Shown: one piece after another, positions 11,247 to 33,478 of the stretch | Position numbering within the stretch: position 1 is the first letter of the stretch | Layout: every line of letters begins with the position of its first letter | Assembly: GCA_903914535.1 (NCBI GenBank) | Contig: CAIWPG010000281.1 | Span: 1-64,000, forward strand | DNA: 64,000 nucleotides | Reading direction: 5' to 3' | Source: an uncultured Oxalobacteraceae bacterium | Lineage (GTDB): Bacteria; Pseudomonadota; Gammaproteobacteria; Burkholderiales; Burkholderiaceae_D | Notes under the pieces: model-generated | Seen by the model: only the letters and a program-made list of their open reading frames with translations | Told to the model about the DNA's origin: nothing | Databases searched by the model: none | Made by a program: the position numbers and the translations under genes

Positions 11247-11262
11247 TGCTGATTTCGCAGCA
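11247..11262. promoter_or_regulatory. candidate sigma54-activator binding dyad TGYTG-N6-CAGCA upstream of the encapsulin operon
   Basis: TGCTG-ATTTCG-CAGCA, embedded in the larger perfect palindrome GTGCTGCTG-ATTTCG-CAGCAGCAC (11243-11266). Confidence 0.6.
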
Positions 11263-11445: not shown

Positions 11446-12615
11446 TTAAAAAACTGCTGCATGCTGCTCAGAACCAGCCAGATTTTCGGCGTGATAATTC
11501 GGGGAAGACAGACTCCCTGACTCCTGCTTAATCAGACCGAACCGCTTCAGTTGTGTACGCAAAACATTGCGGCTGATACCAAGAACCCGGGCACTATGTA
11601 CCTGATTCTGGTTACACCAGCTAAACACGGTACGTACCAGCGATTCTTCTACCGAATTGAATAAATCCGGGTCTCCTGCAGAGACCAGCTCGCTGACCAA
11701 TTCTTCCAGACGACGATACAATTGCTCACGTGCCGCCGCAACAGAACTGACTTCCGGTGTTAAATCTGATGCTGATGCTGAACCTGAATCTGAAACAAGC
11801 ACCTGCAGCGGAACGTCGATACCTTCTGTAACAGCACGATTGCGATGAATGGCGCCGACCAGTTTTAAATCATCAGCACGAATCTGATGATCCCGGCAAA
11901 CAATCAGCCCGTAATGTATGACGTTTTCCAGTTCCCGGATATTGCCGGGCCACTCATACGACAGCAGGGCTGCCTTTGCATCGGCAGCTAAGGTAACGTC
12001 CTTAATATTCATCTTGGCACTGTAGATGCCGATAAAGTGCTGTGACAGCGGCAAAATATCGCCGGGGCGCTCACAGAGCGGTGGCAGCTGTATGGTAGCA
12101 ACCGATAACCGGTAATACAAGTCAGAGCGAAACCGGTCCGACAAAATCGCCTTGTGCAAATCCACGTTGGTGGCAGCTACCAGACGGACATCCAGGGCAA
12201 TGGGGCGACGCGATCCCAGCCGTACCACCTGGCGCTCTTGCAACACCCGTAATAATTTGACCTGCAGAGCCATGGATAAATCGCCGATCTCATCCAAAAA
12301 CATCGTGCCGCCATTTGCCGCCTCAAACCAACCGGCTCGTGCCTGCGATGCACCGGTAAACGCACCGGTTTCGTGACCAAATAACTCAGCATCAATCAGC
12401 GACTCACTGAATGCGCCGCAATTAACGGCAATAAAAGGACCAGTCCGGCCGCTCTGTGCATGAATATGACGTGCGATCAGCTCTTTTCCGGTACCGGTCT
12501 CACCCACAATCAAGGCACTGGCATCACTGCGTGCAATCCGCTCAACCTGTAACAATAATTCTGAGGAACGCGGGTCATGAAATAACAGAGCCTTGGCACG
12601 TATCGACGTCGTCAT
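11446..12615 (-). CDS. sigma54-dependent transcriptional activator (bEBP, SfnR-like architecture: AAA+ plus Fis-type HTH, no N-terminal sensor)
   Basis: GETGTGKE Walker A, GAFTGA loop, LDEIGDLS, C-terminal HTH HSARVLGISRNVLRTQLKRFGLI; likely start ATG 12615 (MTTSIRAKALLFHDPRS). Confidence 0.92.
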   Translation of the reverse strand: MTTSIRAKALLFHDPRSSELLLQVERIARSDASALIVGETGTGKELIARHIHAQSGRTGPFIAVNCGAFSESLIDAELFGHETGAFTGASQARAGWFEAANGGTMFLDEIGDLSMALQVKLLRVLQERQVVRLGSRRPIALDVRLVAATNVDLHKAILSDRFRSDLYYRLSVATIQLPPLCERPGDILPLSQHFIGIYSAKMNIKDVTLAADAKAALLSYEWPGNIRELENVIHYGLIVCRDHQIRADDLKLVGAIHRNRAVTEGIDVPLQVLVSDSGSASASDLTPEVSSVAAAREQLYRRLEELVSELVSAGDPDLFNSVEESLVRTVFSWCNQNQVHSARVLGISRNVLRTQLKRFGLIKQESGSLSSPNYHAENLAGSEQHAAVF

Positions 12616-12818
12616 GACGGCCAAATCCGGGAAGGTAAGAAGTTTATTCACAGGATATATCCAATATAAAAGGCCAAAAGACAATGCCTGACAATACCCT
12701 GACGATACCTGTTTGAACACGAATTATTTCGAAAATTGATAGTCGTTTTTAGCATAAAGAATCTGCACATCATCCGCATTTTGCATTTATTCACACTAAA
12801 AAACGACTAACACGCCCC

Positions 12819-14583: not shown

Positions 14584-15309
14584 TTAATTAACCGCGAAAC
14601 AATACAACAAGCCTGCACCACCGGTCGAAACCAGATTCGCCTGACCGCAGCCACGGCTTGGGTGTGTGGAATTCCAGGAAGTGTTGTTACCACCGGTGCG
14701 ATCAAAATGACCTAACTGAACAGAGCCGTCAGCGGCACTACTTGTATAGTTCTTACAGGTATGGTCAGCAGCATCCGTATATGCCGTACCATCAGCTTGA
14801 GAACCAGTGATAATATCGTGCTGATTCGGCGTATCTCCCGCACCTTTAACTGATTCATTTTTTTCAGTAAATGCCGTCGCTTTACTGATGTTATTACCAA
14901 GTCGTGCCAGTTCCAGGGTATCCCCGTTTAACTGCGCCAGATCACGGGAAATCAGTGCACCGCGTGTGTTGTACCACGGGCCCTGACCAATACGGTCACG
15001 TGCATTAATCGCGGGATTACCATTCGCTGCCTGCGTACTGAGGTAAGCATGCCAGGTTTTATTACCGGCATTTACCGCAGTTGCCAATTTTTGACATTGC
15101 GCATCAGCGCCTGCCAGACCGCCCAGATCCGCACCTTTACCGATACCTTCACTGGTCACAAAAAAACTAAACGGTTTGGCAGGATCAGTTGACCTGGCAC
15201 CCGGCGTCGCAACAGGGGAAGCGGTTTGCGCAAATGCGCCAGCCGTGATCGCCATCGCAGTTACGGCGCAGGAAAACCATACCACTGCCTTAAAGCTTGA
15301 ATTACGCAT
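14584..15309 (-). CDS. secreted lectin-like (C-type lectin/endostatin-like fold) protein
   Basis: Signal peptide; GADLGGLAGADAQCQKLATA...WHAYLSTQ...RIGQGPWYNTRG...HTCKNYTSS...WNSTHPSRGCGQ...LYCFAVN pattern. Confidence 0.65.
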   Translation of the reverse strand: MRNSSFKAVVWFSCAVTAMAITAGAFAQTASPVATPGARSTDPAKPFSFFVTSEGIGKGADLGGLAGADAQCQKLATAVNAGNKTWHAYLSTQAANGNPAINARDRIGQGPWYNTRGALISRDLAQLNGDTLELARLGNNISKATAFTEKNESVKGAGDTPNQHDIITGSQADGTAYTDAADHTCKNYTSSAADGSVQLGHFDRTGGNNTSWNSTHPSRGCGQANLVSTGGAGLLYCFAVN

Positions 15310-15464: not shown

Positions 15465-15944
15465 TTAATCTTTGCTTTTGAAATCATCGTGGCATGCTTT
15501 GCAGGTACGGGTCAGTTTACCGTACTGTGTTTTTACTGCTGCAGCATCGCCGCCGGCAGCAACCACAGCCAGCTCGCTGGCTTCTTTATTGAAGTTGGCA
15601 CCCAGTTCAGCGAAGTGTTTAAGATCTTTAAATAATTCCGGCTTTGCCGAGGTTTCATGCCAGCCTTTACCTTGCTCTGTACCCGGTGCAAACAAAGCGC
15701 CTAAACCGGAATTAGCAACAGCGGCAATCGTGTTGGCAGCCTTAACCACGTCATCCTTATTGTATTGCCCTTCAAGAGAAGCCTTAATACGACCGGAACT
15801 CCAGGCAATCACCTGGAAGCTGGATTGACGTACTTTAATCAATTGTTCCGGCTTTGGTGCCTGCTGAGCCATAGCAAGGGAAGCTGCAGCCAGGATCACA
15901 AGAGCCAGAGCGGGAGCAAAGATTTTTTTCATCTTCTTATTCAT
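15465..15944 (-). CDS. cytochrome c prime-like protein
   Basis: Signal peptide; C-terminal single heme motif CKACHDDFKSKD; four-helix c-prime pattern. Confidence 0.88.
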   Translation of the reverse strand: MNKKMKKIFAPALALVILAAASLAMAQQAPKPEQLIKVRQSSFQVIAWSSGRIKASLEGQYNKDDVVKAANTIAAVANSGLGALFAPGTEQGKGWHETSAKPELFKDLKHFAELGANFNKEASELAVVAAGGDAAAVKTQYGKLTRTCKACHDDFKSKD

Positions 15945-16026
15945 AGTATTTCCTTATGGTAGTAGTTTTTTTCAGGGTGAATTACACTTAACGAGTAAAA
16001 AATAATTTAATAAAACGAGTACATTA

Positions 16027-16596
16027 TTACTTTAAATTTTGTACCACTTCCAACGCTTTATTCACGTTATCTTCCGGGGCAAGACCACCCAGACTGGCAA
16101 TAATTTTTCCGTTTGGTGTAATAATAAATGTGGTTCGTTCGGTCGTATCATGATCGATTTCCACACCGCGCGTATCCTTTTTACCGGCAGCAATCTGCTT
16201 TACAGCAAGGTCATAAGAAACTGCAATTTTTCCACCCGCATCAGAGGCGACCGGAAACTTACCGGCACAATAGTGCGGATCGGCAGAAAATGCATTGAGA
16301 CGACTGATACTATCCAGAGATACGCCAATAATTGTGGCTCCCGCTGCTGCAAATTTTTCCTGATTCACTGCAAATGTATGCGCCTGAATATTACAGCCGC
16401 CGGTAAACGCAGATGGATAGAAATACACCACCACAGGCCCTTTTTTCAGTGACTCTTTCAGTGAAAACTGAAAGGATTTTCCGGCCAGTGATGCTTCAGC
16501 TTTAAAATCAGGTGCAATATCACCTTCCTTTAACGCAGCAAGCGCAGGCAAAGCGATAAGGCCAGATAACACGCAGCCAAGTAAAATTTTCTTCAT
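16027..16596 (-). CDS. periplasmic peroxiredoxin (AhpC/TSA family)
   Basis: Signal peptide MKKILLGCVLSGLIALPALA; YPSAFTGGCNIQAHTFA active site. Confidence 0.88.
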   Translation of the reverse strand: MKKILLGCVLSGLIALPALAALKEGDIAPDFKAEASLAGKSFQFSLKESLKKGPVVVYFYPSAFTGGCNIQAHTFAVNQEKFAAAGATIIGVSLDSISRLNAFSADPHYCAGKFPVASDAGGKIAVSYDLAVKQIAAGKKDTRGVEIDHDTTERTTFIITPNGKIIASLGGLAPEDNVNKALEVVQNLK

Positions 16597-16703
16597 TTTT
16601 CATTCTCCTGAATAGGTGGGCTAACTCATAGCCTACTGTATAGCCTGCTATTATCTATATTAACTACTTAATACTACTTAATGTTTCCGCAACGTGATAT
16701 TTT

Positions 16704-17333
16704 TTACAAACCAGCAATATAATGAGACAAAGCAAGCAGTTCTTCATCGGTCAGCGACTTAGCGATGCCATTCATAACATTACCAGGACTATTTTTTCTC
16801 TCCCCGCTGCGCCAGTCACGTAACTGCTGCTCCAGATAACTCCACTGCTGTCCGCCAATAACCGGGTAAATGACATTAGCGGCTACCGCGCCCTGACCAC
16901 GTACACCATGACAAGCGACGCAAGCAATAACAGCTCTGGCAGGATCACCGTTTTGAAACAATTTTCTGGCAACGGGACTATCAACACCACCATCAGCCTG
17001 CATTTTTTTACCAGTGCCAAAATAAGCTGCAATATCAAACAAATCGGTATCACTAAGCGTGCCCGCCATCATAGTCATAAAATCATAATGGCGTCGCTCA
17101 TGCCGGAAATCCTGCACCTGTTTAACAATATATCCGGGATACTGACCCGATAAAGTCGCAAATTTATTCAAGGGGCCATTACTACTGTCCTGCCCGTTAG
17201 CATCATGGCATTCAAGACAGCGTTCGGCTTCCAGTTTGATCTTTCCTGCTACCGGATCTCCCCCGAAAACCGGCGGCTTAGCAGTCCCGGCAGCAATAGC
17301 ACCGGATGTCACTACCAGTGATGCTGCCACCAT
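16704..17333 (-). CDS. diheme c-type cytochrome (c4-like); true start may be an ATT at 17384
   Basis: Two heme motifs CLECH and CVACH; signal-like N-terminus incomplete from the ATG at 17333. Confidence 0.9.
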   Translation of the reverse strand: MVAASLVVTSGAIAAGTAKPPVFGGDPVAGKIKLEAERCLECHDANGQDSSNGPLNKFATLSGQYPGYIVKQVQDFRHERRHYDFMTMMAGTLSDTDLFDIAAYFGTGKKMQADGGVDSPVARKLFQNGDPARAVIACVACHGVRGQGAVAANVIYPVIGGQQWSYLEQQLRDWRSGERKNSPGNVMNGIAKSLTDEELLALSHYIAGL

Positions 17334-17387
17334 CAGGCCAAACCAAATGTCGGACGAAAAAAATTGCTTAATACGCTTAAAAATCGC

Positions 17388-17768
17388 CTACTCCTTTTTA
17401 TAAAATGTATGGCAGGTACGGCAGTTTCGCGATACGGTGGTCGCCGCATTGGTTGCTGCCTCATAATTTTTAGCGGCCATATAGTTAACGATATCCATAG
17501 TGAGTTCTTTACTCTTTTTCGCCAGATCAACCGCATCCGGAGCATCACCTTTCTGGACAAAAAAAGTTTCAACCTGCGCAAACATATCGGTTAATTCGTT
17601 TGCATCCGCTGTCGATGCCTTCACATCATTCAGTGAAATATTCGATGACAGACTTTTGTTTGTATCTTCTATCGACTGCATTAAATCGGTACTGATTCCA
17701 ACGTCAGCCCAGCTTATACCTGCGACAAGTGCGGCGCAGGTTCCCAAAAAAAGAATTAATTTACGCAT
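17388..17768 (-). CDS. small c-type cytochrome (C-terminal heme, c-prime-like)
   Basis: Signal peptide; CRTCHTFYKKE C-terminus. Confidence 0.82.
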   Translation of the reverse strand: MRKLILFLGTCAALVAGISWADVGISTDLMQSIEDTNKSLSSNISLNDVKASTADANELTDMFAQVETFFVQKGDAPDAVDLAKKSKELTMDIVNYMAAKNYEAATNAATTVSRNCRTCHTFYKKE

Positions 17769-17784: not shown

Positions 17785-19233
17785 TTAACTCAAAATATCT
17801 TTCACAACCTTACCGTACACAACAGTCGGACGTTCCGAGCGACCGTTATTCAGGAAGGTAGTTTTCAAATGATCCAGACCCAATAATTGCAATACAGTCG
17901 CATGCACATCATAGGTATCCACGGCTTTATCCTTATCTGCGACTTGCAAACCGATTTCATCGGTTTCACCATAAGTAAAGCCCGCTTTTAAACCACCGCC
18001 GGCCAGCCACTGGGTATAACCCCACGGATTATGATCACGGCCATTACCGCTCTGACCGTAGGAAGTACGACCAAACTCGGAAGTCCATACCACGAGAGTT
18101 GTTTCCAGCAAACCGCGCTCTTTTAAATCAGCCAGTAATGCACCGATTGGTTTATCAACCATCTTAGCCATCAGGCCATGATTTTTTTCAAGATTGCTAT
18201 GGGCATCCCAGCTGGTAATTTCAGTCTGATTTTCAGGTGAACCTGAAACCACCTGAATAAAGCGCACACCACGCTCAACCAAACGACGTGCACGCAACAA
18301 GGTCGTACCATAACCGGCGGTTGTCGGATCATTCAGTCCATATTTATCTTTGGTATCTTCTGATTCCTTCGAAAGATCGACGGCTTCCGGTGCTGCACGC
18401 TGCATACGATCAGCCAGCTCATACGAACGTACCCGTGCTTTCAGTTCAGTATCGGACGGATAACGCGCTTCACCTTGCGCATTCAGGCGTTTTAACAAAT
18501 CCAGCGAAGCACGCTGTTCATTTGCCGCCGTCAGTTCAGGGCGTTGCAGATACAGAATGGGCGACGGGCCCGGACGGAATGCCGTACCCTGATACACGGC
18601 AGGTAAGAAACCGGAGCTCCAGTTAACCGAACCGGCCGTTGGTTCGCTTTTACCGTTATACAGAACTACATACGATGGCAAATCCTGGTTAGCCGAACCC
18701 AGCGCATAATTGACCCAGGCACCCAGAGAAGGACGACCCGGGCTTACATCACCGGTATTCAATTTTAAAATCGAAATATCGTGCGTTGCACCTACTGTCA
18801 CGCTCGATTTAATAAAAGTCATCTTATCGGCATGCTGTGCAATGTTGGGAACCAGATCAGAAAACCAGGCACCGCTTTCGCCATACTGTTTCCAGGTACG
18901 GTTTGATGCAAACAATTTACCGACACCACCCTGGGTACTGGTTTTGATCCCTTTCAGAAAGGATGCCGGTACATCTTGTCCATGTAATTTAACCAGTTCC
19001 GGTTTGTAGTCATACAAATCCAGCGTACTCGGAGCGCCATTCTGGTGTAACCAGATAACCGATTTAATTTTAGCCGGAAAATTACCGGCTTTAGGTGCCA
19101 GTGGATCTGCCGCCAGGTCTGCCGCAGATGCGGCTGAAATAACTCCGCCACCCGGCAAAAAACCACTCAATGCCGCACCACCAAAACCCATGCCGGAGCG
19201 AATCAGAAAATCGCGACGTGATTGTGTACTCAT
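17785..19233 (-). CDS. DUF1501 domain-containing protein (alkaline phosphatase/sulfatase-like fold, Tat signal)
   Basis: Tat motif SRRDFLIRSGMGFGGAAL; FGRTSYGQSGNGRDHNPWGYTQWLAGGGLKAG typical of DUF1501. Confidence 0.92.
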   Translation of the reverse strand: MSTQSRRDFLIRSGMGFGGAALSGFLPGGGVISAASAADLAADPLAPKAGNFPAKIKSVIWLHQNGAPSTLDLYDYKPELVKLHGQDVPASFLKGIKTSTQGGVGKLFASNRTWKQYGESGAWFSDLVPNIAQHADKMTFIKSSVTVGATHDISILKLNTGDVSPGRPSLGAWVNYALGSANQDLPSYVVLYNGKSEPTAGSVNWSSGFLPAVYQGTAFRPGPSPILYLQRPELTAANEQRASLDLLKRLNAQGEARYPSDTELKARVRSYELADRMQRAAPEAVDLSKESEDTKDKYGLNDPTTAGYGTTLLRARRLVERGVRFIQVVSGSPENQTEITSWDAHSNLEKNHGLMAKMVDKPIGALLADLKERGLLETTLVVWTSEFGRTSYGQSGNGRDHNPWGYTQWLAGGGLKAGFTYGETDEIGLQVADKDKAVDTYDVHATVLQLLGLDHLKTTFLNNGRSERPTVVYGKVVKDILS

Positions 19234-19328: not shown

Positions 19329-21683
19329 TTAAAAACGATATGCAAAGTCATTCGAGTTAGCTACGGTATGAACCAGATCAACGAATGCTGCGGCACGTAC
19401 CGGATTAAATGCAGCGGAAGCCGGCACACCGGTCGGAATAGCAATTTCAAACTTTCCGGACGATGCTTTTTGCTGAATCAACTTTTCCTGTGATGTTAAA
19501 AATTCTTTCAGCAACGCCCGTTCTGCTTTACTCGGTTCACGGGAAAAAAGAATTTCATACAATTTACTCACCTGAGCGGATTCATCGTTACCGGCTTCAC
19601 GAATAACACGACCAGCTAATGCCTGCGACCAGCCAAAAACCACATCGCTGTTAAACAGGGTCAGTGCTTGCAATGGCGTCGTTGTTACATCGCGTTTGTG
19701 ATGCGGATGTGACGAATCTGCCGGATCAAACGTTTGTGTTAATGGATAAGGAATACTGCGTCGGACAAAGGTGTAAATGCTACGGCGATTAAAGTCATGT
19801 GCATCTGTTGAAACCACCCATAAATTACCTGCGCCCAAATTGCCTGGCACTTGCGGAAATACTGCCGGTCCGCCGACTTTATCTTCGATTTCACCCGATG
19901 CAAATAACAGGGAATCACGAATCTCTTCCGCTTCCAGCCGTTTACGCGGGAATACCGCCAGCAATTTATTTTCCGGATCTGCTTTTAAGACTTCAAGCCG
20001 TTCATCCGATGACTCACGGTACACACTCGACAACAGAATTTCACGTTGTAATTTTTTGACGCTCCATCCTTGTTTGATGAAATTTCCAGCCAGGTAATCC
20101 AGTAATTCAGGATTAGTTGGCTTTTGTCCGGCACGCCCGAAATCAGCGACTGTACTGACAATACCGTTATTAAAATACTGGCTCCATACCCGGTTAACAT
20201 AGACACGTGCTGTCAATGGATTGTTATCACTGGTAATCCATTTAGCTAAGGCCGCACGCCGGCCGGAAGATGTGGCTGTCGGAATAATTTCAAGCTTATC
20301 GCCGCCCCATAAAGCAGGAATACCTGGTTGTACTTCATCCAGAGGACGTTCATGCGTACCACCAAAACGAATATTCGTCGGTGGTGAATCAGAATGACCG
20401 AGTTCAGTTACAGAAGTAATCTGGTTCGATCCGCTGCCTGGTCTGAGCTTGTCGAATTTCTTCAGCTCATTCGTCAGTTTTTCATAATCCTTCCATTTAG
20501 GAATATTTTCCGGTTTGTAATCAGCACTGTCTTTATCTTCGGCTGTCAGCTTCAGATAAGCGGCAATGTCATTATCTGTAGTGACACTTTTCAGACGAAA
20601 ATTAACCCAGCGATCCAATGCATTCCATTCACTCTCCGGTTTAAAGATAGCTTCACGACTATCGGTCAGATAACGTTCTTTGTGGTATTTCAAACCTTCA
20701 GCACGTACGGTATCCAAAATTGCTTTTTGCTTAGCGCGGATATCTTTGCTTGCCTCGCGATAAGCTGCTTGCTTTTTAATGAATTCCGTATCCCATGCTG
20801 ACTCCGTGCCTTTCATCAGAGCCATTTTTTCATCGACGCTGGTATTAGCAAAGAATGCCTGCAACTGGAAGTATTCTTTTTGACTTACTTTGTCTGATTT
20901 ATGATTGTGGCATCGTGCGCAGCCAACCGTTGCAGCCAGAAAAGCACCACCGACCAGATCGGTCATATCTGTAGCAATTTCATATTTACGCTGAACCAAA
21001 TCACGTGAATTACTGTTATCCGGGTAGCCAGCCAAAAAGCCGGTAGCGATTTTAGCTTCCTGACTATCAGGGAAGAGTTCATCACCAGCCAGTTGTTCCT
21101 GTACAAAACGGTCAAACGGTTTATCCTGATTAAACGCATTAATCACGTAATCACGATAACGCCAGTTGTTAGGACGTGTCTGGTCACCCTGAAAACCGGC
21201 ACTGTCTGCATAACGGGCCAGATCAAGCCAGCGACGTGCCTGACGCTCACCGAAATGCGGCGACGACAATAAACGATCTACCAGTTTTTCATAAGCTTGT
21301 GGTGAATGATCGTTCTCAAACGCTTTCACATCTTCCGTAGTCGGGAGAATACCCCAGGCGTCCAGCGTAGCGCGGCGGATATAAGTACCACGGGAGGCAT
21401 CTGCCGATGGTTTAATCCCCCTGGCTTCCAGTTGTGCAAGGATAAATGCATCAATAGGAGTACGTACCCATTTACTTTGTCTGACTGCTGGTGCAGCAAC
21501 CAGTTGTATCGGTTGATATGCCCATGGTTTAACCACTGGTGCCGGTACTTTTGCAGCAGCAGAAGCCGTAGCTGCCGGAACAGCTTTGCTCTGATCAGCA
21601 GCCGGCTTATCATCATTTGCAGCGCTTGAAATTGCCGTAGTAAACGTCAGCAGGACCGAGAGATAAAGCGCTTTAGTCTTCAT
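19329..21683 (-). CDS. PSD1/DUF1549-DUF1553 domain (planctomycete cytochrome-associated) protein
   Basis: DUF1549 (RQARRWLDLARYADSAGFQGDQTRPNNWRYRDYVINAFNQDKPFDRFVQEQLAGDE), heme-like motif CARCHNHK, DUF1553 (RVWSQYFNNGIVSTVADFGRAG). Confidence 0.93.
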   Translation of the reverse strand: MKTKALYLSVLLTFTTAISSAANDDKPAADQSKAVPAATASAAAKVPAPVVKPWAYQPIQLVAAPAVRQSKWVRTPIDAFILAQLEARGIKPSADASRGTYIRRATLDAWGILPTTEDVKAFENDHSPQAYEKLVDRLLSSPHFGERQARRWLDLARYADSAGFQGDQTRPNNWRYRDYVINAFNQDKPFDRFVQEQLAGDELFPDSQEAKIATGFLAGYPDNSNSRDLVQRKYEIATDMTDLVGGAFLAATVGCARCHNHKSDKVSQKEYFQLQAFFANTSVDEKMALMKGTESAWDTEFIKKQAAYREASKDIRAKQKAILDTVRAEGLKYHKERYLTDSREAIFKPESEWNALDRWVNFRLKSVTTDNDIAAYLKLTAEDKDSADYKPENIPKWKDYEKLTNELKKFDKLRPGSGSNQITSVTELGHSDSPPTNIRFGGTHERPLDEVQPGIPALWGGDKLEIIPTATSSGRRAALAKWITSDNNPLTARVYVNRVWSQYFNNGIVSTVADFGRAGQKPTNPELLDYLAGNFIKQGWSVKKLQREILLSSVYRESSDERLEVLKADPENKLLAVFPRKRLEAEEIRDSLLFASGEIEDKVGGPAVFPQVPGNLGAGNLWVVSTDAHDFNRRSIYTFVRRSIPYPLTQTFDPADSSHPHHKRDVTTTPLQALTLFNSDVVFGWSQALAGRVIREAGNDESAQVSKLYEILFSREPSKAERALLKEFLTSQEKLIQQKASSGKFEIAIPTGVPASAAFNPVRAAAFVDLVHTVANSNDFAYRF

Positions 21684-21798
21684 CGCTTACCTCCTGAAAC
21701 AGGTATAAATTTTTTCATGTTATTGCCCCTTAAATGAATAATGCATTTGTCCTGACACAAGACTGTGAAGTAAAGTAAAGTGAACCTGAACCTGTATG

Positions 21799-21814
21799 AG
21801 CAACTATCAGGCCA
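21799..21814 (-). promoter_or_regulatory. candidate sigma54 (-24/-12) promoter for the PSD1-DUF1501-cytochrome operon
   Basis: minus strand TGGCCTGATAGTTGCT, GG-N10-GC spacing. Confidence 0.6.
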
Positions 21815-21959
21815 GCTTTCATCCCCTCACAAAAAATGCTTAAAAAATCATCAGGACAATACGCCATTCGTCTTAGATTCCCCCTGCAGAAACCAGGTTT
21901 TTATACTTATTTCATAAAAAATTTCTCTTCTTACATTTGCTAATAAATCGGCTGTTTCG

Positions 21960-21975
21960 TGCTGTTGCAGCAGCA
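21960..21975. promoter_or_regulatory. candidate activator dyad TGYTG-N6-CAGCA
   Basis: TGCTG-TTGCAG-CAGCA in divergent intergenic region. Confidence 0.55.
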
Positions 21976-21993
21976 CCCGTTATGTATCATTGC

Positions 21994-22009
21994 TGCTGGA
22001 CTTGCAGCA
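21994..22009. promoter_or_regulatory. candidate activator dyad TGYTG-N6-CAGCA
   Basis: TGCTG-GACTTG-CAGCA; second site 34 bp from the first. Confidence 0.55.
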
Positions 22010-22161
22010 GATGCGTAAAGTCATCTGTCCTAAAACAAACATATTATTTTCTGCTGAAGAATCACCAGGTTACGCGATGCAACTGCGCGCTATGCAGCAG
22101 ATCTGTTTAAATTTCATCCTGCAATACCCAACTGATTACCGCCGGCAGGGCGGACCTCGCC

Positions 22162-22177
22162 TGGCACGATGATTGCT
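22162..22177 (+). promoter_or_regulatory. candidate sigma54 (-24/-12) promoter for the rhodanese-cytochrome b561 operon
   Basis: TGGCACGATGATTGCT, near-perfect match to TGGCACG-N4-TTGCW. Confidence 0.75.
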
Positions 22178-22212
22178 CATTAAAAAGTATTCACATTTAA
22201 GGAGTCGTTATT

Positions 22213-22704
22213 ATGAAAAGTTTGATTAATAAGAAAAACCTGCTGATCGTTGCATTAGGTCTTACTGCATCCATCGTCTTTGCACAACAAAGCACAACGA
22301 ACCCTAAAGCAGCAGCAGCGGCAGCGGCCGACGTCTGGAAATACCAGGCAAAACGACTCACCAGTACTGAAATTGATAGCTTGCTGGCGACACCGGAAAA
22401 ATTGCTGGTCATTGATGTACGTCGCCCGGATGAGTTGAGCGCCAAAGGCAGTTTTCCTGTCTACCTGAACATACAAGCGAAGGATCTGGAAAAAAGCCTG
22501 GCTTATATCCCTAAAGACCGCGCCATCATTACTGTATCTAACCACGCACACCGCGCTGGTGCTGCGGCCGATATCCTGGCAGCCAAAGGCTACAAAGTAG
22601 CCGGTGCAGCCGGATCGGAAGATTACGAAGCACAAGGCGGAAAATCTATTATCCGCATTGCCGCACCAATACCCAAGGCAGCACCAATAGCTGCAGCAAA
22701 CTAA
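22213..22704 (+). CDS. periplasmic rhodanese-like domain protein lacking the catalytic Cys
   Basis: Signal peptide; LLVIDVRRPDEL; active-site loop ITVSNHAHRAG (Ser in Cys position). Confidence 0.82.
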   Translation: MKSLINKKNLLIVALGLTASIVFAQQSTTNPKAAAAAAADVWKYQAKRLTSTEIDSLLATPEKLLVIDVRRPDELSAKGSFPVYLNIQAKDLEKSLAYIPKDRAIITVSNHAHRAGAAADILAAKGYKVAGAAGSEDYEAQGGKSIIRIAAPIPKAAPIAAAN

Positions 22705-22745: not shown

Positions 22746-23606
22746 ATGAACACCAAATTAATAAATGAACAGGGCCATGAAACCGTCAGCTCCGTACTAA
22801 CCCGTATTCACTTGTGGGATTTGCCTGTCCGTATTTTTCATTGGGCACTGGTCGGACTGGTCACCACGGCTGTCATTACAGGTGAACTTGGCGGCGATCT
22901 GATGGATATTCACAGCAAAGCCGGCATTGCCATCATTGGCCTGGTCGTATTCCGGCTGATCTGGGGCTTTGTTGGTTCCACACATGCACGTTTTATCAAC
23001 TTTGCACCTTCCCCGCCAAAAATTAAGGCGTACTTACGTGGTCAATGGAAAGGTGTCGGTCATAACCCGATTGGCGCATTATCCGTATTAGCATTACTCG
23101 CCTTATTGGCAATACAAGCTGGTACCGGTTTGTTTTCCAATGACGATATCGCCTTTACCGGCCCTCTGGCTGACCTGGCAGGGTCAGCGCTATCGAACCG
23201 CCTCACCAGCATCCATCAATTACTCTCTAATTTCTTACTGGGATTATTGGTACTACATATCGTCGCTATCGGGTTTTATGTGATATTTAAAAAAGATAAT
23301 CTGGTCAGGCCTATGATCACAGGCTGGAAAGAAGTTCAAAAAACAGCTGACCCGGAAATCTCCGTAAAATCCGCTAAACCAGTCCGCAAAGGCAGCCTGC
23401 CCGCATTTTTAGTTGCCAGCTTCATTGCCCTGACTGTGATTTACAGTGTCAGCGGTGCGGCACGGCATGAGGATACTGCGGCGGGTACAAGCCCTGCAGC
23501 GACTGAAATGAAAAATACCCCGGCATCTGCAAGCGACCTTAGCAATAAAACGGGCCAGCCGGTTGCCGCCACACCGCGCGCTGCTACCGTTACGCCATCC
23601 TGGTAA
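22746..23606 (+). CDS. cytochrome b561 domain-containing protein
   Basis: VRIFHWALVGLVTTAVITGE, HSKAGIAIIGLVVFRLIWGFVGSTHARF, HQLLSNFLLGLLVLHIVAIGFY. Confidence 0.88.
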   Translation: MNTKLINEQGHETVSSVLTRIHLWDLPVRIFHWALVGLVTTAVITGELGGDLMDIHSKAGIAIIGLVVFRLIWGFVGSTHARFINFAPSPPKIKAYLRGQWKGVGHNPIGALSVLALLALLAIQAGTGLFSNDDIAFTGPLADLAGSALSNRLTSIHQLLSNFLLGLLVLHIVAIGFYVIFKKDNLVRPMITGWKEVQKTADPEISVKSAKPVRKGSLPAFLVASFIALTVIYSVSGAARHEDTAAGTSPAATEMKNTPASASDLSNKTGQPVAATPRAATVTPSW

Positions 23607-23829: not shown

Positions 23830-24942
23830 ATGAGCATCGCAGTCAAACAACTCAATAAGCGGTTTGGTCAGTTTCAAGCCTTAAACAATGTCTCTCTTGA
23901 TTTTCCGGCCGGAGAATTAACGGCGTTACTGGGACCATCCGGGTGTGGAAAAACCACCTTATTACGCATTATTGCCGGACTTGAACATGCGGATAGCGGA
24001 CAGGTATTGCTTGATGGTGAAGATGCTACCGTTAAACATGTCCGTGAACGCCAGGTCGGATTTGTTTTTCAACACTATGCGCTTTTTAAGCACATGAGCA
24101 TCTTTGATAATGTTGCTTTTGGCTTGAGGGTAAAATCACGTCAGCATCGTCCCAGTGAAGCGCAAATACGTGAAAAAGTAAAAAAATTACTGGATCTCGT
24201 CCAGCTCGACTGGCTGGCAGATCGTTACCCGTCGCAACTCTCCGGCGGACAGCGCCAGCGTATCGCTCTGGCACGGGCTCTGGCCGTTGAACCGCGCGTA
24301 TTACTACTGGATGAACCATTCGGTGCGTTGGATGCCAAAGTCAGGAAAGAATTACGTCGCTGGCTGAGGCAGTTACACGATGAATTACACGTCACCAGCA
24401 TCTTCGTCACGCACGATCAGGAAGAAGCATTGGAAGTATCCGACCAGATTATTGTCATGAACCAGGGACAGGTTGAACAACAAGGTTCGCCGGAACAGGT
24501 ATATCAGTATCCCGCCTCACCTTTTGTTTATGGTTTTCTGGGGAGTGTAAATCTGTTTCATGGCAGGCTGCATGAGGGTATATTACAGGCTGGAACTGCA
24601 TCATTTAACGCACCGGAACACCAGCATGTCATAGATGGCAGCGGAACTGCCTATGTGCGGCCGCATGAGCTTGATGTGCAGCGCTACAGCCCGGATATGC
24701 CAGGACTGGTGGCGCAGTTAAAACGCGTACACAGCATCGGACCGCTAACCCAGCTTGAATTAGCACGTGAAGACAATAACGAATTAATCGAGGCATTGCT
24801 ACCGACGGAGTACTACGCCGCCAGACAATTCAAAACTGGTGAAACATTGTTAGTCACTCCGCGTCGCCTGCATATTTTTACCAGCCCTGAATCTGCTCCG
24901 ATATTAAAAGCAGACTCTACCTTTACTACTGCTCAATTATGA
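23830..24942 (+). CDS. cysA: sulfate/thiosulfate ABC transporter ATP-binding protein
   Basis: [89 protein letters not shown]. Confidence 0.93.
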
Positions 24943-25883
24943 ACTTTCAACAATTACGCTCCATTCGTGAAGCATCGCGCTGCGGATTTAATCTGACCGA
25001 GGTCGCCAACGTGCTATTCACATCGCAGCCGGGTGTAAGTCGTCAGATCCGTGAACTGGAAGAAGAACTGGGCGTCACTATTTTTGAGCGGAACGGCAAA
25101 CGTCTGACAGGGCTGACTGAACCGGGCAGAGGCATTTTAACCATTGTTGAACGCCTGTTGGTAGAAGCAGAAAACCTGCAACGCGCCAGTAATGATTACG
25201 CAGATCAAAACAAAGGCACACTGACCATTGCTACGACCCACACCCAGGCACGCTATGTATTACCGCATGTTGTACAGGCATTCCGGCTGGCATTTCCCAA
25301 CGTCCGGATCGCGCTGCAACAAAGCTCACCTGAACATATTGCCGATCTGGTGATGTCAGGAAAAGCAGATATTGGTATTGCAACCGAAGGCCTGAGTCAG
25401 TTTAAAGACCTGGCTTCGTTTGCATGCTATGAATGGAGCCACGTATTAGTTGTCCCTGACGGACATCCTTTGCTGTCCTGTGTCGCCAACGGCGAACAAA
25501 TCAAACTACAGGATATCGCCACCTGGCCACTGATTACCTACGATATCGGCTTTACCGGTCGCAGCCATATTGATAAAGCATTTCGTGCCAGCGATCTGCA
25601 CGCCGATATCGTTCTGACTGCGATGGATGCCGATGTTATCGGACAATATGTCGCACTCGGTATGGGTGTGGGTATCGTCGCCTCAATGGCAGCCGAATCA
25701 CTCAGAGCACATGGCTTAAACACGATACCTGCCAGTCACTTGTTTAGCGCCAACGTCACGCGTCTGGCGGTACGTCGCGGTACCTATCTGCGCACTTACA
25801 CCGTCGATTTTATTCTGGAATTTGCCCCGGATCTGACCAGAGAAAAAATTATCACTGAAGTTGCGCTGATCAACCACGACTGA
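24939..25883 (+). CDS. cysB: CysB-type LysR-family transcriptional regulator
   Basis: [46 protein letters not shown] (CysB/Cbl subfamily); 4-bp overlap with cysA. Confidence 0.88.
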
Positions 25884-26029
25884 TCAACTGCATGCCACTA
25901 CACGCCGGGGGCAGGGTACTGCAACCGGCATTAAAAACACGCATAGCCAGCCCGCCGTTTTTTCTAAGTAATAAAACCCTATCCTCCCTGCCCCCCGCAG
26001 TTCAGCACGGACATCCGGTATAAACATAC

Positions 26030-26045
26030 TGTTGAATTCGCAGCA
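26030..26045. promoter_or_regulatory. candidate activator dyad TGYTG-N6-CAGCA upstream of TonB receptor
   Basis: TGTTG-AATTCG-CAGCA. Confidence 0.55.
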
Positions 26046-26078
26046 AATAAATAAAAATTAGTTTATATCGCACTACCA

Positions 26079-26094
26079 GGTTGAATTTTCAACA
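26079..26094. promoter_or_regulatory. related dyad GGTTG-AATTTT-CAACA upstream of TonB receptor
   Basis: perfect GTTGAA-TT-TTCAAC palindrome with the same N6 spacing. Confidence 0.45.
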
Positions 26095-26265
26095 CATGAC
26101 AATGCCGAAAATTTCCGTGATTCAGCTACGATATGCCAGACATATTTTTCTCTTTTTTTAAGACTGGATTTGTATCAATCAAGAGCTAAAACCGATAAAA
26201 ATCACCTGACTGATTTCATGTCAGTCTCCCACAATAAAGCATCGGTTAAAACGACAAATAAGACA

Positions 26266-26281
26266 TGGTATGTAACTTGCG
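26266..26281 (+). promoter_or_regulatory. candidate sigma54 (-24/-12) promoter of TonB receptor gene
   Basis: TGGTATGTAACTTGCG, GG-N10-GC spacing, 58 bp before the ATG. Confidence 0.55.
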
Positions 26282-26323
26282 TAACGAATTGTATTTACCT
26301 CTTATTTTTCAGGAGAATTTGCA

Positions 26324-29131
26324 ATGCGTACCAGACTAAGACATCACACGACATCCCAGCGAACGCGACAACAATCAGGATTCCGCCTGCAACCTATTGC
26401 CGGCATAATAGCCAGTTTATTTATTGCAGCATCAGGTTCCGTATATGCGGCAGATCCGACCGTTGCTGATTTACAAGCTGAAATTGTTAAATTAAAACAG
26501 ACTATCGCCGCACAGGCTGCGGCACAGGCAACAGCAAGCGGCACACCGGCCGCTACGGCTCCCCCTGCTGCACCTGGCACCGTAGCAGCAGCACCGGAAG
26601 AACCACAAACGCTGGGTGAAGTTACCGTTACCGGTACGGCACGACTTGCCGCAGTAAAAGATATACCTAACTCTATTTCCATTACGAGCGGTGAAGATTT
26701 ACAAACATTAAATGCAGCCGATATCGGCTCAATAATCAAACGTGCTTCCAATGTAGTATGGAATCAGGGTAATCAACGCAGCAGTAGTATTTCAATACGC
26801 GGCATAGGTAAAATCGGCCAGACCGAAGCGCAGGATCCCAGCGTTGGCGTAACAGTAGATGGCGTAAGTTATGCCTACAATGCGCTGACATCCAGCTACG
26901 ATTTTACCGATGTAGATACGCTGGAAGTATTACGTGGCCCACAAGGTACGCAATCAGGAAAAAATGCCAGTCTGGGTGTGATTAACATTACCACCAACCG
27001 TCCTTCATTCACCCCAAGTTCCGACTACTCGCTGACTCTTGGTCAGCGTGGCACTGTTGCCGCTACATTTGCAGGAGGCGGGCCAATTGTGGACGACCTT
27101 CTGGCCTGGCGCGGCACATTTAGTGCAGACAAGGGATCTGGCGACATGGTCAATTTATATGACCGTGATCAGTCCTTTACCAATACGGACCGGCTCACTG
27201 GTAAAGTTCAGTTTCTGCTTACGCCAACACGCGACTTTAACGCCCGGTTTTCAGTTGAGGTACAACCAAATTCCGGTGAAACGTCTAATAACCGCACTAT
27301 CTTTACTCAAACACCATCTGTCTATTCCAATGGGTCGGTCAATCCTCTCTCTACCGATGCACAAACCCGCTTAGGGCGCAGCTGGTTTACGCAAGAGGCA
27401 AACTATAGCTACCTGGGTAACTACCTGAATGGATCGGGTCAGGGTGCCGTTGACTATAACAACGGATTACCCCAGGTCACAGGCAGCCGCAGTGCTACTG
27501 CCGAGTTAAACTGGACATTAGGAACACATACACTGACTTCAATTACTGCATATAAAGATTATCATTTTAATGCGGTCAATGACGAAGGAACGCCATTCGA
27601 TATTAATCCTAATTCCGGCGGATTTAACCTCAATTACAAACAAGCCAGCCAGGAATTTCGTATCAGCTCAGAATTGGGTGGACTGGTTGATTACCAGGCC
27701 GGCCTGTATTTCATGAAGACGCAGGATATTGCCGATTACAATAAAGTATGGGGAAGCGATGCCGGAGCTTATTTTGCCAGTACAGCCCAATACAACCGGC
27801 TGGATGCCACTGCTGCCGGTCAGCTACTAATGGTCAATTCGCTGGATCGTTTGTCGATGTTATACAATTCGCCCGCCGGTGTTCAGGATATCGAAAATAG
27901 CAGCGATGCTATATTTGCTCAGGCTAACTGGCATGTTGCTAATAATTTCACCGTGACTACCGGGCTGCGCGTCTCGCATGAAGCACGCGTCACCAGCGGC
28001 AGCAGCTCCATCATTGATAATGGCTACGGCGCAGCACTGAATCCGGTATCCGTAAATAATGTTCAGCTGGGCGGCTTCAATTCCGGTTCAACCGGCACAT
28101 TGGTTGCAGGTGGCAACAATGCAGCCCAATTAGCCCTGGCTGATTCAGTGGCGCTGCAATACTTTGGCGTTAAAGCCACCAACGTCGCGGGTGCGGCCTA
28201 CAACAGCCTGTCCGCAGCACAATTACAACAGGTAGCGGATGCAAAAAACATCCGGGCGACAAATGCCGGCGTACTATTTAATCAATCAACGGCACAAGCT
28301 TATTCTGGTAATCTGCCTACGATAAATATCAGCCCTGCATACAAAATTAATGACAACCTGACTACCTATATCTCTTTGCAATATGGTGTTAAAGCCGGTA
28401 TTTCTCAGTTTACCAACGGGATATCTAACCCCGTCAAAGCAGAACGTACCAGTTCATATGAGTGGGGACTAAAATCGTCATTACTGGATAAAACTTTGCT
28501 GCTGAATGGTGATTTATTCCTGACCAATATCGCCAACTACCAACAGGCAGTCCGGGTACTGGATGTCTACACCACGGCACTGAACAATAACGGTCAGTAC
28601 TACTACACCACAGCAACCGGTAATGTGGCTAAAGTTGTCTCACGCGGACTGGAACTGGATGCAACGTACAGCGGGCTTAAAAATACCGTCGTCCGGATTA
28701 CCGGCGCTTATAACAATGCCTTCTACAAATCCTTTACAAATTCTGCACAACCGGTAGAAAACGCCTATACCGGGGCCTCACCATACCAGAACGTCTCTGG
28801 TCAGACATTGCCTGGTGCCGCTAAAGTAACCCTGAATCTGGCGGCAGATTACCATATACCTGTATCGGCGGATAAAGAGTTCCATACCAGTTTTAATACG
28901 GCCTTCTCAAGCCGTTATAACTCGGATACGTCTTTATCCTCTTATGCATGGATAGGCGGCAACAGCGTCACCGATATCGCGGCAGGTATCGGCAATACCA
29001 AAAAAACTTTCGATGTCAGTTTATTGGTCAAAAACCTGTTTAACAATAATACGCCGCTGGCGCAGACATGGGATAGCTTTACACCGGCTAACCCACGCTG
29101 GATCGGTATCGTATTCCGTGGCAAACAATAA
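26324..29131 (+). CDS. TonB-dependent receptor
   Basis: Signal peptide, periplasmic coiled-coil/Ala-Pro linker, TonB box-like TLGEVTVTGTAR, plug domain (VLRGPQGTQSGKNASLGVINITTNRP), C-terminal barrel ending in aromatic segment RWIGIVFRGKQ. Confidence 0.93.
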   Translation: MRTRLRHHTTSQRTRQQSGFRLQPIAGIIASLFIAASGSVYAADPTVADLQAEIVKLKQTIAAQAAAQATASGTPAATAPPAAPGTVAAAPEEPQTLGEVTVTGTARLAAVKDIPNSISITSGEDLQTLNAADIGSIIKRASNVVWNQGNQRSSSISIRGIGKIGQTEAQDPSVGVTVDGVSYAYNALTSSYDFTDVDTLEVLRGPQGTQSGKNASLGVINITTNRPSFTPSSDYSLTLGQRGTVAATFAGGGPIVDDLLAWRGTFSADKGSGDMVNLYDRDQSFTNTDRLTGKVQFLLTPTRDFNARFSVEVQPNSGETSNNRTIFTQTPSVYSNGSVNPLSTDAQTRLGRSWFTQEANYSYLGNYLNGSGQGAVDYNNGLPQVTGSRSATAELNWTLGTHTLTSITAYKDYHFNAVNDEGTPFDINPNSGGFNLNYKQASQEFRISSELGGLVDYQAGLYFMKTQDIADYNKVWGSDAGAYFASTAQYNRLDATAAGQLLMVNSLDRLSMLYNSPAGVQDIENSSDAIFAQANWHVANNFTVTTGLRVSHEARVTSGSSSIIDNGYGAALNPVSVNNVQLGGFNSGSTGTLVAGGNNAAQLALADSVALQYFGVKATNVAGAAYNSLSAAQLQQVADAKNIRATNAGVLFNQSTAQAYSGNLPTINISPAYKINDNLTTYISLQYGVKAGISQFTNGISNPVKAERTSSYEWGLKSSLLDKTLLLNGDLFLTNIANYQQAVRVLDVYTTALNNNGQYYYTTATGNVAKVVSRGLELDATYSGLKNTVVRITGAYNNAFYKSFTNSAQPVENAYTGASPYQNVSGQTLPGAAKVTLNLAADYHIPVSADKEFHTSFNTAFSSRYNSDTSLSSYAWIGGNSVTDIAAGIGNTKKTFDVSLLVKNLFNNNTPLAQTWDSFTPANPRWIGIVFRGKQ

Positions 29132-29153
29132 AATAATCATTTAAACACGTACA

Positions 29154-29192
29154 CAATACCCCCGGCAAAGTCAGCACCTGCCGGGGGTATTG
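29154..29192. terminator. strong hairpin downstream of TonB receptor gene
   Basis: CAATACCCCCGGCA-N11-TGCCGGGGGTATTG, 14-bp perfect stem. Confidence 0.75.
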
Positions 29193-29288
29193 TTCATTCT
29201 TCCGCCTGCCGGGGATGATGTACTTACAAACACAACGACTACCGCTACATTCTGCTGCATCAGACTCAACACCATGACCAATACCATC

Positions 29289-29304
29289 TGTTGAATTTGC
29301 AGCA
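29289..29304. promoter_or_regulatory. candidate activator dyad TGYTG-N6-CAGCA upstream of tonB
   Basis: TGTTG-AATTTG-CAGCA. Confidence 0.55.
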
Positions 29305-29391
29305 GTTATGTGTCGTATTGTTAGCAGCGACCTCCCTGCATTCCTCCCCGATTTCATCTTCCTCACAGGTAAACCGAACCTATCAGACATC

Positions 29392-29407
29392 AGGCACGCT
29401 TTCTGCT
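29392..29407 (+). promoter_or_regulatory. candidate sigma54 (-24/-12) promoter of tonB-exbB-exbD
   Basis: AGGCACGCTTTCTGCT, GG-N10-GC spacing. Confidence 0.65.
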
Positions 29408-29446
29408 AATGAACAGGTATGAAAGCAATTTTAAAAAGGCTAAATC

Positions 29447-30217
29447 ATGTCTACCCTGACTTTTGAAAGCATCACGACTTATCCGCGGCGTACGGCAGTA
29501 AGACGCCAGACCCGCAAACCTTTGCCACTGACTGAACCGGCAAATGTGCAGGCTGCCATCGCTGCCATCAAGGCCAAGAATGCAACTGGCGGACTGAGAA
29601 ACAAACGTAGTATCACTGCACTGGTGATAGTAACGGTATTGCTGCATGCCGCAATTATCACGTCGATAAACCGTCATGGCCCGATAGAACCGCTTCAATC
29701 TCCGCCACCGCCGCCGTTAAGCATCGATATTGCACCGCCACCACCGCCGCCGGTCATCTTACCTAAGCCTTTGCCACAAGTGGCAAAACCATTACCGGCT
29801 CCGGCGAAACCGGCGCCATCCGTTCCCTTAGTTCGCAGTGACACGCCGGTTGATAATACACCCTCACCAGATGCTGTACGCGTTGCGACGGCTCCGGCTC
29901 CGCCTGCACCACCTGCTCCGGCACCGGCAGAACGTATTACCGAACCGCGCGGCTTTGCCGGTTACCTGAATAATCCGGCTCCGGAGTATCCGGCTGCAGC
30001 ACTGCTCAAAGGCTACCACGGCACAGTTATTCTTAACGTACATGTTTTAGCCTCAGGACAAGCAGACCAAATCACCGTATTAAAAACCAGCGGACAACGC
30101 ATCCTGGATGATGCCGCAATTAAAACCGTTACAAACTGGAAATTTGATCCGGCTAAACGCGGAGAAACACCTATTGATGCATTTGTAAAAGTGCCTCTGA
30201 ACTTCAAACTTTCTTAA
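29447..30217 (+). CDS. energy transducer TonB
   Basis: Single TM, Pro-rich spacer, C-terminal TonB domain (PEYPAAALLKGYHGTVILNVHVLASGQADQITVLKTSGQRILDDAAIKTVTNWKFDPA). Confidence 0.92.
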   Translation: MSTLTFESITTYPRRTAVRRQTRKPLPLTEPANVQAAIAAIKAKNATGGLRNKRSITALVIVTVLLHAAIITSINRHGPIEPLQSPPPPPLSIDIAPPPPPPVILPKPLPQVAKPLPAPAKPAPSVPLVRSDTPVDNTPSPDAVRVATAPAPPAPPAPAPAERITEPRGFAGYLNNPAPEYPAAALLKGYHGTVILNVHVLASGQADQITVLKTSGQRILDDAAIKTVTNWKFDPAKRGETPIDAFVKVPLNFKLS

Positions 30218-30247
30218 TCCAATTTAAACTTGTAAAGAGCGCATACC

Positions 30248-30970
30248 ATGAATGACTCCACCTTAAATCTTATCGTACAGGGAGCACTTTATTCCCTTGT
30301 ATTTTTTTCCATTGTCACCTGGGCCCTGATCCTGATTAAGGGAATACAGCACTGGCGTTTGTCGCGACGCAACCGGCAATTTACACAACAATTCTGGGCA
30401 GCTACCAGCCTGGATGCCGCTACGGCACTGGCCAGCGATGCCAGCCCTAAATCCCGCCTGGCCACCGTCGGCTTTGATGCCCTGTATGTCAGCGAAGGAA
30501 ACGGCACAGGCAGCGATCTGGAACACAGCTGGGATCGTCAGGAACTGCTGGAGCGTCATCTGCGTCAACAAATTCAAAAGGAATACCATTCACTGGAAAG
30601 TGGTCTTGCCGTATTAGCCTCCGTGGGCAGCACAGCACCCTTCGTCGGCTTATTTGGCACTGTATTCGGGATTATTCATGCGCTCAGCGCCATCGGTAAA
30701 AATGCCTCTGCCAGTATTGATGTCGTTGCAGGGCCAATTGGTGAAGCCTTGGTTGCGACCGGCGTCGGGATTGCTGTTGCGGTACCGGCTGTGCTGGCAT
30801 TTAACTTTTATGTCCGTCGACTGAAAGTAACAGCGGCTGAACTTGACAACTATGCCACCGACTTCGTCAATCTGGCACAGAAGAGCGGTTTCCGTGTCGC
30901 TAAATACAAAGTAAAACAAACACAGGAAAAAGAAACCGACACAAGCAAACCACAGGGAGTATTTGCATAA
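30248..30970 (+). CDS. exbB: MotA/TolQ/ExbB proton channel family protein
   Basis: SGLAVLASVGSTAPFVGLFGTVFGIIHALSAI ... GPIGEALVATGVGIAVAVPAVLAFNFY. Confidence 0.92.
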   Translation: MNDSTLNLIVQGALYSLVFFSIVTWALILIKGIQHWRLSRRNRQFTQQFWAATSLDAATALASDASPKSRLATVGFDALYVSEGNGTGSDLEHSWDRQELLERHLRQQIQKEYHSLESGLAVLASVGSTAPFVGLFGTVFGIIHALSAIGKNASASIDVVAGPIGEALVATGVGIAVAVPAVLAFNFYVRRLKVTAAELDNYATDFVNLAQKSGFRVAKYKVKQTQEKETDTSKPQGVFA

Positions 30971-31380
30971 TGGCTTTCTCAACAGGCAGAGATAGTAGCG
31001 ATGTGGTCAGTGAAATTAATATTACGCCCCTGGTAGATGTCATGCTGGTGTTACTGGTGACGTTCATCATTACCGCACCCTTACTCAATAACGCAGTCCA
31101 CATCAACCTGCCAAAAACATCAAGCACCTCACCACCGTCGCAAGTAAAAACGGTAACCGTGAGTATTGATGCCGCCAGCAGGGTATTTATCGATAAGCGT
31201 GAAGTTACCTTGCTGGAAGTAGAAACCGACCTGAAGAGTCTGGTTACACATGATCCCGACCTGGCCTTAAGCCTGCAGGCAGATGAAGGAGTTCCTTACC
31301 GGTCGGTCGCTAAAGTGATTACCAATATTCAGCGTGCCGGTGTTACTAAACTGGCGGTATTAACGCAACCCGGCGGGTAA
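30970..31380 (+). CDS. exbD: ExbD/TolR biopolymer transporter
   Basis: SEINITPLVDVMLVLLVTFIITAPLL. Confidence 0.92.
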   Translation: MAFSTGRDSSDVVSEINITPLVDVMLVLLVTFIITAPLLNNAVHINLPKTSSTSPPSQVKTVTVSIDAASRVFIDKREVTLLEVETDLKSLVTHDPDLALSLQADEGVPYRSVAKVITNIQRAGVTKLAVLTQPGG

Positions 31381-31477
31381 CTTACCCGCCTCTTAGCAGA
31401 GCAGAAAAACCCGAAGACTGCCCTGATCCGAAGTGCCCGCTTCATTTTTAGTTGACCCCTTATAAAACGGAACCGCC

Positions 31478-32494
31478 ATGTTTAAAAAATTAGCAAGAAC
31501 AGTCATTGCAGTCGCATTGTTTGCACAAGCAGCTCATTCGGTGCAAGCTGCCGATTTTTCCCTGCTGAATGTATCGTATGATCCGACCCGCGAACTTTAT
31601 CAGGAATACAATAAAGCCTTTACCAAATACTGGAAAGATAAAACAGGCGACAACCTGACCCTGAAAGCATCTCATGGCGGATCAGGAAAACAAGGCCGGG
31701 CTGTTATTGACGGTCTGGAAGCCGATGTGGTCACACTGGCTCTGGCATACGATATTGATGAAATTTCCAGCGTAGGAAAATTATTAGCTCCCGACTGGCA
31801 AAAACGCCTGCCGCACAACAGCACACCGTACACATCGACGATTGTGTTACTGGTTCGCAAAGGTAATCCCAAAGGAATCAAAGACTGGAATGATTTGATT
31901 AAACCGGGTGTTTCTGTTGTGGTAGCCAACCCGAAAACATCCGGCGGTGCACGCTGGGCTTATCTGGCAGCCTATGGCTATGCACTTAAAAAGAATAATA
32001 ATGATGACGCCAAAGCACGCGCCTTCATTACCAGCCTGTATAAAAATGTCCCGGTACTCGATTCCGGTGCCCGCGGTGCGACAGTCACATTTGCTGAACG
32101 TGGTGTCGGCGATGTGTTGCTGGCATGGGAAAATGAAGCCTATCTGGTAGAAGCCGAATTTGGCAAAGGTAAATTCGATACCGTATTCCCTACACTGAGT
32201 ATTTTGGCTGAACCACCGGTTGCCGTGGTCGACAAAGTCGTCGATAAACGCGGCACACGCAAAATAGCGGAAGCCTATCTGCAGTACCTGTATTCACCGG
32301 AAGGACAGGAAATTGCAGCACGTAATTTCTATCGTCCGACCGACCCTAAAATCGCGGCGAAATACGCTTCTAAATTTCCAAAATTAAGCTTATTTACCAT
32401 CAATGACACCTTTGGCGGATGGCAGAAAGCCCAGCAAACCCACTTTAGCGATGGCGGTGTGTTTGACAAAATTTATCAGCCGGCCGCGAAGTAA
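31478..32494 (+). CDS. sulfate ABC transporter substrate-binding protein
   Basis: Signal peptide; [69 protein letters not shown]. Confidence 0.95.
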
Positions 32495-32505
32495 TTAGCT
32501 ATGCA

Positions 32506-32541
32506 ATTAAAAAATCCGCGCTCATACGTGGATTTTTTAAT
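32506..32541. terminator. intercistronic 12-bp perfect hairpin between sulfate-binding protein gene and cysT
   Basis: ATTAAAAAATCC-N12-GGATTTTTTAAT with T-run in right arm. Confidence 0.65.
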
Positions 32542-32572
32542 CAATAAATACCATTTTCACAAGAGAATAATG

Positions 32573-33469: not shown

Positions 33470-33478
33470 GGAGTTATC

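Follow-up and report, generated by a model that had tools for sequence, protein, structure and literature searches.

A putative SfnR-type enhancer in a bidirectional σ54 control region of probable sulfur-acquisition operons

An intergenic region of 529 bp (positions 21684–22212 of the window, i.e., the whole 64,000-nucleotide stretch of DNA analysed) lies between a minus-strand operon, the first gene of which encodes a DUF1549/DUF1553 protein, and a plus-strand operon that starts with a gene for a rhodanese-like protein. DUF1501 proteins together with DUF1549/DUF1553 proteins form a widespread pair lacking an assigned function, and the question arises of how the two divergent operons are controlled and by which regulator. 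We consider it very likely that an SfnR-type enhancer drives both of them, as sulfur-acquisition operons, via a bidirectional σ54 region.

Divergent σ54 promoters and their conservation

Mismatches were counted against the σ54 consensus TGGCACNNNNNTTGCW, using TGGCAC-N5-TTGCW as the test form with GG and GC at exact spacing. Just two sites of at least 6 bits are found in the 529-bp region, one on each strand, and they coincide with the two -24/-12 elements described in the initial annotation (Table 1). The plus-strand element matches the consensus perfectly and has counterparts in Sapientia (L063) and in the Oxalobacteraceae genome L104. The minus-strand element deviates by CT in place of AC and keeps both invariant pairs, GG and GC, as well as their spacing. 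Transcription is predicted to start at about position 22188 on the plus strand, which leaves a leader of 25 nt, and at about position 21788 on the minus strand, with a leader of 105 nt. An rpoN gene is present in the genome, its Sigma54_DBD domain being detected as two parts located at the ends of contigs.

Table 1. Coordinates of predicted regulatory elements and associated genes in the window
Feature	Position	Strand	Remarks
σ54 -24/-12 promoter, rhodanese–cytochrome b561 operon	22162..22177	+	TGGCACGATGATTGCT; 0 mismatches; 17.9/19.0 bits
σ54 -24/-12 promoter, DUF1549/DUF1553 operon	21799..21814	-	TGGCCTGATAGTTGCT; 2 mismatches; 13.4 bits
Operator 1	21960..21975		TGCTGTTGCAGCAGCA; TGCTG-N6-CAGCA
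Operator 2	21994..22009		TGCTGGACTTGCAGCA; TGCTG-N6-CAGCA
Candidate weak third operator	22052..22067		TGCTGAAGAATCACCA; 1 mismatch
Best IHF-like match	22060..22072	+	AATCACCAGGTTA; 1 mismatch; right arm; weak
DUF1549/DUF1553 protein, first gene of minus operon	19329..21683	-	784 aa; Pfam PSCyt2 and PSD1
DUF1501 protein	17785..19233	-	N-terminal twin-arginine-type leader; sulfatase-like
Small CxxCH protein, cytochrome c, AhpC-type peroxiredoxin, cytochrome c'	15465..17768	-	In line with DUF1501
Exported rhodanese-like protein, first gene of plus operon	22213..22704	+	
Cytochrome b561	22746..23606	+	
Operator before TonB-dependent receptor gene	26030..26045		TGTTGAATTCGCAGCA
σ54 promoter, TonB-dependent receptor gene	26266..26281	+	TGGTATGTAACTTGCG; TGGTATGCAACTTGCA in L063 and L104
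Operator before tonB-exbB-exbD	29289..29304		TGTTGAATTTGCAGCA; distance to promoter identical in L063
σ54 promoter of tonB	29392..29407	+	AGGCACGCTTTCTGCT
Perfect dyad before rhodanese–serine acetyltransferase–encapsulin–cysteine desulfurase operon	11247..11262		TGCTGATTTCGCAGCA
SfnR-like σ54 activator (bEBP) without sensor domain	11446..12720	-	9 kb from control region

Across the window, matches with at most two mismatches number 48 as compared with 47 expected from the pattern count. By this measure the minus-strand site is at chance level, and conservation in relatives was therefore needed to judge it. A search with the DUF1553 protein provided 78 loci from named genomes and another six in a same-order sample. 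From these, 59 homologous upstream regions were scored with a σ54 cut-off of at least 13 bits, with shuffles and 300 segments drawn at random from these loci as controls. A σ54 site facing the DUF1549/DUF1553 gene is present in 39 of the 59 regions (1.7 in shuffles; 3% of random segments), and a divergent σ54 pair is present in 22 (0.03 in shuffles; 0.3% of random segments).

These results bear on a first alternative, according to which the plus promoter alone is σ54-dependent, the minus element is decayed or a chance match, and the DUF1553 operon is transcribed from another promoter. The two mismatches of the element, the chance frequency of such matches and the long minus-side leader would fit this explanation, but at the matching place upstream of the same gene relatives carry an element of the strong TGGCACGATAGTTGC type, with which the minus element agrees in position and sequence, and a site facing the DUF1553 gene recurs in 39 of the 59 homologous regions. 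We thus regard this alternative as very unlikely and, based on the conservation in homologous upstream regions, take the minus-strand site as real.

The layout of promoters and operators is conserved across dozens of Proteobacteria. L063 and L104 resemble the window in that a rhodanese gene and the DUF1553 gene are divergently arranged; each of the two promoters is matched by a counterpart, and the space between them holds two dyads at a distance of 32 bp. In some relatives with the promoters the dyads are not recognisable or, as in L104, degenerate. In other lineages a TonB-receptor gene replaces the rhodanese gene as the divergent neighbour of the DUF1553 operon, with an unchanged promoter layout; that is, the divergent partner varies by lineage and the divergent arrangement of the promoters persists.

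Operators and the presumed activator

The two dyads noted previously between the promoters both have the sequence TGCTG-N6-CAGCA, are of the TGYTG-N6-CARCA type, and are separated from the promoters by gaps of 145 bp and 152 bp. Dyads with at most one mismatch occur 14 times in the window (2.9 expected). The motif was also found de novo in relatives: when all 5-mer inverted repeats with spacers of 0–14 were counted without bias in 87 regulatory regions, TGCTG-N6-CAGCA ranked first and TGTTG-N6-CAACA second. Sorted by spacer, TGYTG..CARCA is present in 37 regions at a spacing of 6, in 8 at 3, in 13 at 9 and in 0–2 elsewhere, the counts at 3 and 9 being attributed to CAGCAG periodicity. Operators are often paired, with a sharp peak at 31–32 bp (about three helical turns); in the window they are 34 bp apart. 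In 20 regions a dyad is located between the two promoters of a divergent σ54 pair.

The description of the region as symmetric holds for the near-equal gaps found here; in L063 and L104, the closest relatives, the operators lie at other distances from the promoters. Because these distances vary among relatives, symmetry was dropped as a functional feature, and the exact symmetry of the region is incidental. IHF sites had been envisaged for both arms. The search yielded one candidate with a single mismatch, in the right arm, and none as good in the left arm, for which reason a need for IHF in both arms was discarded. IHF may assist in the region.

The product of the putative activator gene is an AAA+ σ54 activator (PF00158, 223 bits) with a GAFTGA loop. 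Its AAA+ domain begins at residue 48, and no other N-terminal family and no sensor domain were detected in the domain search; the true start may be internal to the open reading frame. Orthologues of the activator sit in many homologous DUF1553 clusters and have the helix-turn-helix in common with it. In one sampled genome (G308) the operators are present, but its bEBP fails the 1e-100 cut-off. The nearest plasmid-encoded relatives of the activator adjoin msuE-ssuD in P. aeruginosa and msuE-sfnG-sfnB in Burkholderia pyrrocinia, and a position next to msuE/sfnG-type genes is the known setting of SfnR (PMC8234197). TGYTG-N6-CARCA and a -24/-12 site precede both msuE of P. aeruginosa and msuE-sfnG of B. 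pyrrocinia. Likewise, a divergent promoter pair in L181 encloses two dyads between genes which, from their N-terminal sequences only, were read as msuE and sfnB. The helix-turn-helix (HTH) sequence of the activator, NQVHSARVLGISRN, resembles NQVHTANLLGLSRN and NQIQAARLLGISRN, the HTHs of regulators beside sfn/msu genes, and differs from those of the six other full-length bEBPs encoded in the genome.

The presence of these six genes, along with one fragment of a σ54-activator gene, is compatible with a second alternative, in which the divergent σ54 promoter is real but the dyads are bound by a different activator of the genome, e.g., one of the NtrC type. We consider this very unlikely since dyads of this type occur at sfn/msu genes next to SfnR-type regulators, and since the SfnR-like protein with its distinct HTH is the sole bEBP in the window and recurs in homologous clusters. 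The HTH similarity, the linkage and the operators at known SfnR targets all point to the product of 11446–12720 as the most likely activator acting on the dyads.

Outside the window 44 further dyads of the draft genome were inspected; they lie mostly within open frames, and only 2 of the 44 have any σ54-like site facing away, which confines the coupling of dyads and σ54 sites to the sulfur cluster. That the dyads are unrelated repeats of codon-like CAG/CTG words, with both promoters activated from elsewhere, is hardly credible: such words are indeed common, the degenerate dyad pattern occurring 51 times in the genome (5 times for the reversed control) and mostly in genes, but the de novo enrichment at a single spacing with inclusion of the non-CAG form, the preferred pairing distance and this restricted σ54 coupling argue against it.

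Proposed mechanism and comparison with known systems

The initial proposal of one cluster of operators flanked by two divergent σ54 promoters remains the best reading, and the arrangement recurs in relatives. The region most likely works like, and is, an SfnR-type control region. The predicted promoters and operators are documented by sequence together with conservation. We propose that RNA polymerase-σ54 would sit at the two divergent -24/-12 promoters and that the pair of TGYTG-N6-CARCA operators at the centre of the region would be occupied by an enhancer-binding protein of the SfnR type, most likely the one encoded at 11446–12720. DNA looping in either direction would then lead to opening of both promoters, and sulfur limitation would turn on the DUF1553-DUF1501-cytochrome operon and the rhodanese–cytochrome b561 operon. 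Given that the activator is devoid of a sensor domain, the sulfur signal is probably transmitted via CysB control of the activator level. Expression of SfnR is under CysB control at sulfate starvation, and a cysB-like gene is located at 24939–25883. What is known of SfnR forms the basis for proposing DNA looping, the simultaneous activation of both operons and the sulfur signal. One small conserved region thereby probably lets a single SfnR-type activator switch both sets of sulfur genes on together, and the arrangement suggests that one enhancer cluster would bring the exported enzyme module and the partner operon under joint control.

The mechanism is of a known kind. In the SfnR regulon of Pseudomonas, SfnR, SfnR1 and SfnR2 act on sfnFG, sfnAB and msuEDC. 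Common to both systems are a sensor-less σ54 activator, -24/-12 promoters, sulfur genes as targets, and TGYTG-N6-CARCA dyads about 100–200 bp upstream, which we found also at msuE and msuE-sfnG. By contrast, the targets in the window are the DUF1553/DUF1501/cytochrome operon, the rhodanese–cytochrome b561 operon, the TonB receptor gene and tonB-exbBD. Moreover, a family search detected neither the SfnG nor the SsuD-type family in the 81%-complete draft genome, in which control of sulfone or sulfonate genes by the activator was accordingly not found. The activator is thus SfnR-like by protein and operator, and different by targets.

Pairs of divergent σ54 promoters that share an activator region are exemplified by zraP/zraSR of E. 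coli and by divergent nif promoters. In these, too, activator sites are located between two σ54 promoters pointing away from each other, but activator, operator and genes are all other than here.

On a broader reading, whose chances we regard as evenly balanced, many Proteobacteria would have redirected an SfnR-type activator away from sulfone metabolism and towards the control of an undescribed sulfur-scavenging system with the conserved bidirectional enhancer as its hub. As a joint claim this reading comprises sulfatase-like, exported DUF1501, the DUF1549/DUF1553 haem protein, periplasmic cytochromes, peroxiredoxin and rhodanese, a TonB receptor and energizer of the system's own, and hub operators paired about three helical turns apart.

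Target genes and neighbouring operons

The DUF1549/DUF1553 protein has an invariant CxxCH haem motif (C255/C258/H259). DUF1501 gives weak sulfatase matches by sequence and by fold. As the quality of its structural model is medium (mean pLDDT of 65) and matches to the sulfatase/alkaline-phosphatase fold reach a TM score of about 0.3, the term sulfatase-like is to be taken as a lead. The order of the genes in line with DUF1501 (15465–17768) is identical in relatives. DUF1501/DUF1553 together with cytochromes, peroxiredoxin, rhodanese and a TonB system suggest that the target set may take up an organosulfur compound and process it in the periplasm. We regard organosulfur compounds or sulfate esters as candidate substrates, and the operons are expected to respond to sulfur supply. 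Paired TGYTG-N6-CARCA operators and conserved σ54 promoters tie the DUF1501-DUF1549/DUF1553 pair to sulfur-limitation control, which makes the function of this pair directly testable. A regulon of sulfatase-like DUF1501, haem protein and TonB receptor seems to be undescribed, no description of it having been found in the literature searched.

Several Zoogloea-type genomes (L048–L051) contain the DUF1553-DUF1501 module in two tandem copies. In many genomes the DUF1553 operon is accompanied by a gene for an exported protein of 241 amino acids (14584–15309, minus strand, in the window), for which no Pfam or NCBIfam match was obtained. A σ54 site preceding this gene (15437, minus strand) was rejected as it is not conserved in relatives.

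On the plus strand (23830–34414), a set of sulfate-uptake genes, encoding CysA, CysT and CysW along with a periplasmic binding protein and a regulator of the CysB family, is interleaved with the genes for the TonB receptor and TonB-ExbBD; the sulfate and TonB systems thus seem to form one sulfur island. Within cysW, on the opposite strand, a perfect σ54 consensus, TGGCACGCGCATTGCA, is located at 34160–34175 and probably represents a chance or intragenic site.

A complete family 2A encapsulin operon (6177–11148, minus strand) directly adjoins the SfnR-like activator gene. It encodes a rhodanese, a serine acetyltransferase, the SrpI shell protein and a cysteine desulfurase whose N-terminus carries a long extension. 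Family 2A (SrpI-type) encapsulins with cysteine desulfurase have been tied to sulfur starvation (PMC8049743, PMC8346489). The operon in the window corresponds to such systems, includes the rhodanese and serine acetyltransferase genes and has one dyad upstream, but differs in that no σ54 site was found near this dyad. In 34 other genomes neither a dyad nor a σ54 site is present directly upstream of encapsulin operons. Control of encapsulin by the SfnR-like activator is therefore not supported in general, and encapsulin storage was dropped as a conserved regulon member; in this genome, control of the operon by the activator is a possibility. In L184 (400–850, reverse complement) a divergent σ54 pair has four dyads in or beside it; this genome has an encapsulin operon, and a gene for an SfnR-like protein is located close by.
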